From Blautia sp. Marseille-P3201T (GTDB taxonomy: Bacteria > Bacillota > Clostridia > Lachnospirales > Lachnospiraceae): 64,000 bases of DNA. The notes under the pieces were generated by a model that saw only the letters and a list, made by a program, of their open reading frames with translations, did not search any database and was not told the origin of the DNA. Every line of letters starts with the position of its first letter. The first letter of the stretch is position 1. Positions 35,371 through 59,060 of this stretch are shown piece by piece. The translations under genes and the position numbers were made by a program. The stretch spans positions 248,001 to 312,000 of the forward strand of contig NZ_LT635470.1 of NCBI RefSeq assembly GCF_900120295.1, given 5' to 3'.

Positions 35371-35652
35371 AACAAAAGCAAAACCGATGAGAAAGAGGAG
35401 TAAGCTTGAAACGAAATTACAGAGAGCGGCAGGTGGTGGAATTGCCGTATGGACTTTGAAGTTGAATGGACTTTCGAGGGCAGCCCGAAATGAAAAGAGT
35501 AGGCGTTGTCGGGAACCGAACCCGTTATCAATCAGGCGTGTATGTCAGTACATGGTAGAGTGGACATTTGGCAATGTCAAGTTGAGTGGTACCGCGATAA
35601 TAAAGGATTTTATTACCGTCTCAAGTTAGTTTCTAACTTGAGGCGTTTTTTT
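35371..35652 (+). promoter_or_regulatory. T-box riboswitch, tryptophan-specific
   Basis: The T-box core GAGTGGTACCGCG lies at about 35584-35596. Stem I parts include GGAGTAAGC and AGAGAG; stem III is CGGG-aaccgaa-CCCG followed by TTATCA. The likely specifier codon is TGG (Trp) at 35467-35469 in GAATGGACTTTCGAG; a second TGGACTTT occurs at 35450. A terminator (CTCAAGTTAG 35620-35629, CTAACTTGAG 35633-35642, T run 35646-35652) competes with the antiterminator. Uncharged tRNA-Trp should therefore turn on the downstream importer. Confidence 0.93.
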
Positions 35653-57375: not shown

Positions 57376-58110
57376 ATGATAGTGATTTGGATAATAATTG
57401 CCTTATGCGGCATTTGCTCACTGATTTTATTATCAGGACGAGGCAGTATTTTTATTGCCGGTTATAATACCATGCCAAAGGAAGACAAGGAGCAATATGA
57501 TGAGAAAAAACTTTGCCGTATTACAGGAGCGGGTATGCTGGTCATTACCATACTTACGGCAATTCTGGAAACTTTTGGTGAAAAGATACCGGATTGGTTC
57601 TGGATATTCTATGCTGTTTTGGTCATCCTTATTGCAGTAGGAATTATGATTTTGAGCAATACAATCTGTAAGATAAAAGAAAATATAGGAAGTAAAAAGA
57701 AACGCTATAACAAAGTAGTTATTTGCGTTATAGCAGCATCTATGGTGTTTTCCGGTTTGATTATGGGCATTGTTTTCAGTAAAGGCAAGATTGAAATTAC
57801 AGTATCAGCAAGTCATCTTAACATTGAAGGATATTGGTGGAACGATTATGAGATAAAAACAGAAGATATTGAGAAAATAGAACTTACAGAGAATTTTCAG
57901 GCAGGAACAAGAACCAATGGATTTTCCGGTGCGACTTTGCTGCAAGGGGAATTTGAAAACGAAGAACAGGGGGCATATACTCTGTATGCGTATAAAGACT
58001 GTAAAGCGTACATAATCCTGCACACAAAAAAAGGAGATGTGGTAATAAACGAAAAAACAGAGAAGGAGACAAGAGAACTCTATCATGAAATAGAAAAAAC
58101 TTTAAAATAA
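57376..58110 (+). CDS. Membrane protein with DUF3784-like N-terminus and PH-like C-terminal domain
   Basis: A 244-residue protein. Four hydrophobic segments (about 1-20, 50-68, 76-96 and 112-132) include the DUF3784-type GSIFIAGYNTM motif near 25-35. The C-terminal about 100 residues are beta-rich and resemble a bacterial PH-like domain (SASHLNIEGYWWNDYEIKTE). AAGTGGGG precedes the start. Function unknown; it is monocistronic before a candidate RNA gene. Confidence 0.72.
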   Translation: MIVIWIIIALCGICSLILLSGRGSIFIAGYNTMPKEDKEQYDEKKLCRITGAGMLVITILTAILETFGEKIPDWFWIFYAVLVILIAVGIMILSNTICKIKENIGSKKKRYNKVVICVIAASMVFSGLIMGIVFSKGKIEITVSASHLNIEGYWWNDYEIKTEDIEKIELTENFQAGTRTNGFSGATLLQGEFENEEQGAYTLYAYKDCKAYIILHTKKGDVVINEKTEKETRELYHEIEKTLK

Positions 58111-58129
58111 TGGTCTCTTATTGTACAAT
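58101..58129 (+). promoter_or_regulatory. Promoter of the candidate RNA
   Basis: TTTAAA (58101-58106), 17 bases, TACAAT (58124-58129). The predicted start (about 58136) coincides with the foot of the closing stem of the RNA. Confidence 0.55.
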
Positions 58130-58135
58130 GGCTTT

Positions 58136-58284
58136 ACCCAAAGAATTATTGAAGTAGAGATTGTGCTGCTATGCACCCACAGGGTTAAAAGAAATGCGGG
58201 ATGGGGCACACCCGCCAATAATTCTTTGGTTAAGCAAATATAGATGATTGATACCACCGAATAATTGGTCGGTGGTATTTTATT
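58136..58284 (+). ncRNA. Candidate structured non-coding RNA, family unknown
   Basis: A perfect 14-bp closing stem (CCAAAGAATTATTG 58138-58151, CAATAATTCTTTGG 58216-58229) encloses 64 bases that hold a GTGC-tgctat-GCAC hairpin and GCGGG paired with CCCGC (58196-58215). A promoter starts two bases before the stem, and a terminator (ATACCACCGA 58251-58260, TCGGTGGTAT 58269-58278, then T-rich) ends it. No ORF of note and no ribosome site. I do not recognise 6S, SRP, tmRNA, T-box or a known riboswitch. Confidence 0.65.
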
Positions 58285-58312
58285 TCATAGAAAATTGCGT
58301 CTTATGGAATAA
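58280..58312 (+). repeat. Hairpin repeat copy B (AAATTGCGTC core)
   Basis: Arms TTATTTCATAGA (58280-58291) and TCTTATGGAATAA (58300-58312) around AAATTGCG. It follows the candidate RNA terminator directly. Confidence 0.75.
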
Positions 58313-58320
58313 AAACTATT

Positions 58321-58403
58321 CCGCAAGGATTGCACTGCGGCGGATGGGTATCATGTTGCCAGAGCAACCCGCCGCAGGCGGAGAATTCTGCAAAGCAGAA
58401 TTC
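58321..58403. repeat. GC-rich stem-loop cluster, probable dispersed intergenic repeat
   Basis: Two perfect hairpins: CTGCGGCGG (58335-58343) with CCGCCGCAG (58369-58377), and GAATTCTGC-aaa-GCAGAATTC (58383-58403) followed by CTTTTC. The GC content is far above the surroundings. It sits at the tail of the Sel1 gene and may end its transcript. Confidence 0.7.
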
Positions 58404-58412
58404 CTTTTCATT

Positions 58413-59060
58413 TTATTGATTTTCAGCCGGCTTTTCAATTTCATCAATAGCCATGCGGAAACCATTCTGAGCAGCTTTCATTCTCCAAAAATCTGCTTTT
58501 TCCAAGTCTTTTTCAGTTCCTTCTCCATAGCGGTATAAGACAGAAAGGTTGTACTGAGCAGCCGGAATATTGGCATTTGCTGCTTTTTCAAAAAGCTGAA
58601 AAGCTTTTGCAGGTTCATAGGGAACAGGATTTCCTGTAAGGAAATATCCGCCCATACAGCACATGGCACGAAAATCACCTTCAGCAGCAGCTTTTTTGTA
58701 CCAGTCAAAGGCTTTTGACAAATCCTGCTTTACACCAATTCCTTCTTCATAACAGCGTCCTACATTATACAGGGCATTAGTATTTCCGGCTTTTGCAGCC
58801 TGTTCCATATAAGAAAAAGCCTTTTTCTCATTTTTTTCAACACCTGTGCCTTGTGCGTAGAGAAGAGCCAGATGCATGGCTGCTTCTGCGTGACCTTTCT
58901 TGGCAGCTTTTTCATACCACACAGCAGCTTCAGGTAAATTGACAGAGGTACGAATACCATTTTCGTAATAATATCCTACGGCATAGATAAAATCCTTCTG
59001 GCCGTTTTCTGCAAGAATTTTTAATTCTTCTACTGTAAAATTCAAATTTTTAATATCCAT
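58413..59060 (-). CDS. Sel1-like (SLR/TPR-type) repeat protein
   Basis: A 215-residue protein made of about five Sel1-like repeats of 36 residues (A..WYEKAAKKGHAEAAMHLALLYAQG, and similar at YMEQAAKAGNTNALYNVG, YKKAAAEGDFRAMCCMG, FEKAANANIPAAQYNLS, WRMKAAQNG). No signal peptide or membrane segment, so it is a cytoplasmic protein-protein scaffold. Its leader contains three competing hairpin arms. Partner unknown. Confidence 0.88.
   Translation of the reverse strand: MDIKNLNFTVEELKILAENGQKDFIYAVGYYYENGIRTSVNLPEAAVWYEKAAKKGHAEAAMHLALLYAQGTGVEKNEKKAFSYMEQAAKAGNTNALYNVGRCYEEGIGVKQDLSKAFDWYKKAAAEGDFRAMCCMGGYFLTGNPVPYEPAKAFQLFEKAANANIPAAQYNLSVLYRYGEGTEKDLEKADFWRMKAAQNGFRMAIDEIEKPAENQ

Follow-up and report, generated by a model that had tools for sequence, protein, structure and literature searches.

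A solitary skipping-rope RNA gene from a family that pairs with predicted PBECR2/PBECR3 RNases, probably as their antitoxin

We begin by considering a short stretch of the window (the whole 64,000 nt of DNA analysed here) for which an earlier note had proposed a self-contained transcription unit producing a stand-alone structured RNA. The features of this locus, all on the plus strand, are as follows.

57376-58110, plus strand: gene of 244 aa directly 5' of the RNA, with DUF3784 and a bacterial PH domain (Pfam: PF12650, 6.5e-26; PF10882, 1.1e-7)
58101-58129, plus strand: sigma-70-type promoter-like site, TTTAAA (58101-58106), 17 nt, TACAAT (58124-58129)
58138-58151, plus strand: 5' strand of the closing stem P1, 14 bp with 58216-58229 (folding; covariation among relatives)
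58144-58223, plus strand: match to the skipping-rope RNA, RF02924, model positions 1-80 (55.8 bits; gathering score 36.7)
58154-58172, plus strand: hairpin P2, 58154-58157 paired with 58169-58172, its loop holding UGUGC (58162-58166)
58162-58210, plus strand: kissing-loop pseudoknot, UGUGC (58162-58166) with GCACA (58206-58210) (own-versus-swapped loop test)
58174-58191, plus strand: hairpin P3, 58174-58178 paired with 58182-58185 and 58191
58196-58215, plus strand: hairpin P4, 58196-58200 paired with 58211-58215, its loop holding GCACA (58206-58210)
58216-58229, plus strand: 3' strand of the closing stem P1 (folding; covariation among relatives)
58250-58289, plus strand: intrinsic terminator, an 11-pair hairpin (58250-58279) with a T-rich tail

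The elements from which the earlier note had assembled its unit are borne out one after the other. The perfect 14-bp closing stem is present and encloses the folded 64-base interior; the RNA as a whole consists of this stem and the three hairpins P2 to P4. A 98-nt stretch folds at -34.8 kcal/mol, whereas its dinucleotide-shuffled versions average -21.4 +/- 3.7 (z -3.6, none of 200 as good), and when the terminator is included z becomes -5.3, again with none of 200 shuffles as good. The promoter-like site matches the consensus at 9 of 12 positions; such a match by itself is weak evidence (a consensus search of the region lists four sites, two of which are this same site, with 1.7 expected), and the -10 box is kept in the sister species, where it reads TATAAT. 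The intrinsic terminator is found as described. The claim of no coding content also stands: the two that overlap the RNA in a mechanical ORF listing, of 51 and 40 aa, have no support as genes. No tRNA or tmRNA is found in the 64,000-nt window, and at 58000-58450 the other Rfam families give sub-threshold matches only. Two neighbouring features may be recorded here. A dispersed repeat at 58278-58411, matched in whole or in part at 16 or more further places of the same genome, is present in close relatives and absent from the sister species at the RNA locus, and a T-box leader (RF00230, 109.6 bits) lies at 35378-35626 of the window.

The part of the earlier note that does not survive is its novelty. 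It had recognised no known class and had proposed an Rfam/Infernal search, naming a hit to a known family as the result that would speak against it; that search (cmscan) returns RF02924, the skipping-rope family, well above the gathering score and over the full model. All four helices of the family, P1 to P4, are present in the window RNA, and so is the family's pseudoknot between the first and the third hairpin loop; the Rfam 14 paper (PMC7779021) illustrates a pseudoknot for this family. The window copy differs from the family in its 14-bp P1, and it has GAAAUG where most of 40 aligned RF02924 members have GAGAUG. Besides the family itself, the earlier note lacks the kissing loop, the two further copies that this genome carries, and the family's partner gene.

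Does the family as a whole preserve this structure? The stem covariation in relatives that the note had proposed to examine is found: in an alignment of 94 members (90 distinct rows), which had itself been fitted to the structure, 84.2% of the cells of 28 scored pairs are paired versus 62.0% after shuffling, with none of 500 shuffles as high, and 27 of the 28 pairs change on both sides. A self-contained unit for a structured RNA is thus well supported. Hairpin P3 is poorly aligned across the family (51% of cells paired). The kissing-loop sequences are widely variable and covarying; for the 67 distinct loop pairs among the 94 aligned members, each loop paired with its own partner gives a mean score of 12.4 versus 10.06 +/- 0.26 for swapped partners, the top of 200 swaps being 11.06.

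The family is said to have been described originally by Weinberg et al. in 2017. In the open literature that we searched, a scope outside which that description falls, we find neither a published function for skipping-rope nor a link between it and the partner described below, and literature on the phage annotation 'spbA' yielded nothing useful. The portions of the Rfam 14 paper and of PMC8501573 drawn on here give no function either; in the latter, skipping-rope makes up 1% of the phage non-coding RNAs used by a phage-host method. The RNA occurs in 70 of the 392 genomes of the window genome's order, at 89 places, and in 21 of 299 genomes drawn from the phylum; weak RNA matches are lost through the stricter filters applied in searches of over 40 genomes, so that all counts of RNA absence are upper bounds. 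The window genome has three copies including that of the window, and tandem RNAs, two or three copies each, are found at four loci (L071, L056, L094, L114).

We turn our attention to what lies beside these RNAs. A comparison of the neighbours of 96 RNA places (the 89 and 7 further ones) yields one dominant protein cluster, mostly of about 110-170 aa, which usually ends shortly 5' of the RNA on the same strand and which Pfam assigns to PBECR3 (down to 5.7e-25) or PBECR2; on 34 RNA-linked proteins, PBECR2 is matched in all 34 and PBECR3 in 25. PBECR domains are predicted RNases of phage polyvalent proteins, found also solo or fused to MuF or portal domains, with a predicted catalytic His in an N-terminal helix and a Ser/Thr near the C-terminus (PMC5512222). 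By our own residue mapping, of 130 full-length domains linked to the RNA, 127 retain the His and all 130 the Ser/Thr. An AlphaFold2 model of a PBECR protein (pLDDT 91) places the predicted catalytic His in a helix, and the Foldseek matches of this model in the PDB are all weak: a contact-dependent-inhibition entry at rank 1 (E 0.12), eight unrelated entries, and HigBA at rank 10 (E 1.1). This result is compatible with a BECR toxin and is not proof of one; searched by sequence, the PDB gives chance-level matches only, and PADLOC on the 34 proteins gives single weak matches only, each from one protein. Judging from the conserved residues, the PBECR protein looks active. The domain may also be carried on a larger protein. 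In the case of L114 a phage minor capsid protein bears it at the C-terminus (Pfam; a minor head protein by PHROG), and more than 200 aa precede it in 7 of 56 RNA-linked proteins from the order, 16 of 42 from viral contigs and 9 of 61 from genome contigs.

Counted from the protein side, 44 of the 51 PBECR2/3 genes found in the order's 392 genomes are followed on their own strand by the RNA, at no more than 400 nt; the 51 are those over the Pfam cut-off, and six more lie below it, one of them with RNA. By genome, 41 have both RNA and PBECR, 29 the RNA only, 5 PBECR only and 317 neither, a co-occurrence with a Fisher value of 5e-31 when relatedness is ignored. The seven PBECR genes without RNA comprise two at contig ends, four from one genus and one followed by a terminator; a search behind them with our own model finds no RF02924-like RNA, two of the places being those contig ends. 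The four from one genus (G086, G207, G233, G244) are PBECR3 genes, the downstream gene is deoC-like in three of them, and they are possibly domesticated.

Counted from the RNA side, a profile search of the 700 nt before the RNA, same strand, finds PBECR at 160 of 250 RNA places (96 from the order, 76 from viral contigs and 78 from genome contigs picked by the pattern of the window subtype), and none at any of the three control positions, the downstream and opposite-strand stretches of the same 250 places. The 160 matches are 133 full-length ones and 27 fragments; seven of the fragments are near an edge (600-nt limit), a few enter the count twice or three times, one gene being shared by tandem RNAs, and some are maybe assembly errors. 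The 90 places without an upstream match include the window copy, and five of them are near a contig or extract edge. At 98 of 159 places (an earlier count) gene and RNA are 33-46 nt apart, and on the genome contigs of the window subtype 61 of 78 places have PBECR upstream. The fragments adjoin RNAs that still match RF02924 (L379, for example); of two plasmids of B. velezensis NJAU-Z9, one has a full-length PBECR gene, and in the other the gene is cut to 258 nt with the RNA kept.

The pairing extends beyond the order. Eight of the 12 PBECR3 over the cut-off found there have the RNA, six on the same strand and two convergent in one genome, and each of the four that lack it lies in an ORF of 1,413-2,356 aa. 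Of the RNA places outside the order, 8 of 22 have an upstream PBECR within the limits set; one more (L357) overlaps the frame end, and two others are convergent. Those convergent places lie on one contig (G691, C11), an arrangement like that of the Bacillus plasmids below. Among 20 named records (7 phage and 13 plasmid) found by tblastn with PBECR queries taken from RNA-linked proteins, 19 have RF02924 beside the PBECR gene, and the single one without it, Javan254, ends with that gene. Near-copies are among the 20 (Streptococcus suis phages, Bacillus plasmids, and pairs from Fusobacterium, Macrococcus and Priestia), and one, MT835941, was already known through its RNA. The pair is seen on Streptococcus phages as well as in plasmids from Bacillus, Brevibacillus, Macrococcus, Priestia, Sporosarcina, Fusobacterium and Treponema. 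The Bacillus-plasmid RNA (RF01691) adjoins the pair on each of the four Bacillus plasmids, at 1777-1832 of L374, which is pTA1060, and also on L377-L379. The genomic pairing of skipping-rope with PBECR is close to certain. Distances among the RNAs and among their PBECR partners correlate as well (r 0.83 for 130 pairs; largest of 999 permutations 0.13), as expected from physical linkage alone.

The RNA carries transcription signals of its own. Among the distinct RNAs, an exact TATAAT stands shortly upstream in 104 of the 142 that are linked to PBECR (mean 15.9 and maximum 28 in shuffles) and in 21 of the 86 that are not (mean 7.1, maximum 14); with one mismatch allowed the counts are 132 of 142 (mean 85, maximum 98) and 53 of 86 (mean 42, maximum 54), the latter hardly over chance. 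A terminator follows 90 of 136 PBECR-linked RNAs and 45 of 85 orphans, compared with 0-5 in shuffles. RNA and PBECR gene are in convergent orientation on pTA1060 and on three plasmids of B. velezensis, and on pTA1060 a promoter-like sequence (TTGAAA and TATAAT, recognised by eye) precedes the RNA.

Where does the window copy stand in this family? The profile search finds no PBECR within 4 kb of it and we find no PBECR remnant beside it; the DUF3784/PH gene occupies the position held by PBECR in many relatives and is not itself a PBECR gene. Both other copies in the same genome are paired in the usual way (contig coordinates): PBECR3 at 466504-466800 with the RNA at 466349-466426, both minus, and PBECR3 at 780826-781146 with the RNA at 781237-781305, both plus. 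Among 249 other RNAs the closest to that of the window (91 of 100 bases) is on a viral contig, L144, where PBECR lies upstream; judged by eye, the similarity runs from about the -10 box to the terminator and leaves the toxin gene outside. The second-closest, L053, is likewise an orphan. In the sister species (G008) the same locus lacks 24 nt from the core of the RNA (58178-58201 in the window), so the window copy, which retains stem, kissing loop and core, may be a relic. Other orphans of the window's subtype occur on two viral contigs (L146, L147), where a near-identical frame for a 117-aa acidic protein ends about 32 nt before the RNA.

Combining this information, we favour with reasonable confidence a reading in which the window holds a solitary skipping-rope gene of a family that forms the RNA half of a module with a PBECR2/PBECR3 RNase and works by an antitoxin mechanism. 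The protein half would be a small predicted RNase, alone or at the C-terminus of phage head proteins, and presumably toxic. The RNA would be transcribed from its own promoter as a separate transcript of 100-150 nt, fold into a four-helix junction locked by the kissing loop, and bind and block the RNase in trans, as type III antitoxins block ToxN, thereby protecting the host of the phage or plasmid against the toxin carried. That skipping-rope neutralises the PBECR RNase we infer as quite probable, and it would most likely do so by direct binding, type III-like in action and outside type III in classification. The balance of losses points the same way. RNAs with a fragment or no toxin account for 117 of 250 places, edges included, compared with 7 of 51 toxins without RNA, and this is the asymmetry expected of an antidote. 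The window copy, taken from its -10 box through its terminator, would then represent the antitoxin part of a phage module of this kind, with the toxin gone; if expressed, it would be at most an orphan antidote against a PBECR2-type RNase delivered by phage.

The data on pairing would serve equally well a reading in which the RNA serves the nuclease as cofactor or guide or is its substrate, activating it, aiming it or being cut by it, and the widely variable, covarying kissing loops could reflect a specificity for targets. A cofactor, however, is expected to vanish with its enzyme or soon after, whereas the RNA is common without an intact PBECR and PBECR is less so without the RNA; orphan and tandem copies exist, and the terminators kept behind about half of the orphans argue in the same direction. 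We consider this reading unlikely. Quite unlikely, in our estimate, is an unrelated trans-acting function in phages or hosts, of which PBECR would be one neighbour among several and the orphans would show the main use. The 90 places without PBECR do leave room for another use of the RNA, and the neighbours are varied (an XRE-type regulator at L063, RelB-YafQ at L058, RelB-ParE at L117, a PIN-domain protein at L127); set against this are the 44 of 51 PBECR genes and the 19 of 20 records reached through the protein that have the RNA, always on the 3' side of the gene.

Two further explanations place the action of the RNA on the PBECR messenger. As a cis-acting structure of the 3'-UTR, affecting stability or termination, it would be well placed at its usual short distance behind the gene on the same strand. 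This is contradicted by the convergent copies on the four Bacillus plasmids and at two places of one genome, and the frequent exact TATAAT and the orphan and tandem copies also stand against it; on pTA1060, convergent orientation with a promoter-like sequence of its own excludes such a role, and we regard the explanation as extremely improbable overall. A promoter-like sequence adjoining a toxin gene would suit an antisense RNA, as in type I systems, where the antitoxin RNA is complementary to the toxin messenger. With the 65 usable of 130 unique RNA-PBECR pairs, the start region pairs slightly better with its own RNA (-27.3 versus -26.3 +/- 0.4 kcal/mol for swapped, about 2 sd), but the coding sequence gains nothing (-42.3 versus -42.3), and the conserved elements are intramolecular helices and the kissing loop. 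Antisense action on the messenger is unsupported and very unlikely.

Returning to the antitoxin reading, we compare the module with known systems. In type III systems the antitoxin is an RNA with a pseudoknot that binds an RNase, and its gene consists of tandem repeats ahead of the toxin (PMC5086642, PMC4147584). The likeness to these systems (ToxIN, CptIN, TenpIN) is a pseudoknotted RNA encoded beside a predicted endoribonuclease. In type III, however, the RNA is upstream of the toxin in tandem repeats, with a terminator between and one promoter, whereas in the PBECR module it is downstream, mostly single, has its own promoter-like sequence and is sometimes convergent. The toxin here is PBECR2/3 by Pfam with no ToxN-type family listed, and skipping-rope has a junction and a kissing loop instead of the H-type pseudoknot of short tandem repeats. 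Gene order, copy number, the family of the toxin and the fold of the RNA all differ, and we therefore do not file the module under type III. The PBECR domain of phage polyvalent proteins (PMC5512222) is the protein partner here, occurring by itself or joined to a minor-head protein; an RNA partner is not mentioned in the portion of that account used here, and the four domains in very long ORFs of our search lack the RNA. The MuF polymorphic toxins (PMC5576092) likewise have a toxin domain on a phage head protein with a presumed immunity determinant directly after it, a small protein as proposed there in the part that we cite, whereas in the PBECR module it would be an RNA.

The RNA family was already known as RF02924; for the pairing with the partner gene we find no earlier account in the open literature searched. 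As that gene is almost always found with the RNA, the function of RF02924 becomes directly testable, for example on the B. subtilis plasmid pTA1060, whose PBECR protein is WP_010890193.1. If the antitoxin reading is true, it extends RNA antitoxins to another RNase family, in a gene order invisible to type III searches that look for tandem repeats before the toxin, and suggests an RNA-based immunity against head-borne phage toxins. It is an even question whether all this amounts to an undescribed, widespread kind of PBECR toxin-antitoxin system, in which phages would carry both a free module and a head toxin with its immunity RNA, and bacteria would keep orphan antidotes, such as the window copy, against phage-injected RNases.

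We note finally that at three of the loci with other neighbours (L058, L117 and L127) skipping-rope lies directly behind genes resembling type II toxin-antitoxin pairs; at the last of these it is, by our own reading, the gene preceding the PIN-domain protein that resembles RelB. YafQ is a member of the RelE/ParE superfamily. This superfamily has the BECR fold (PMC11980606).
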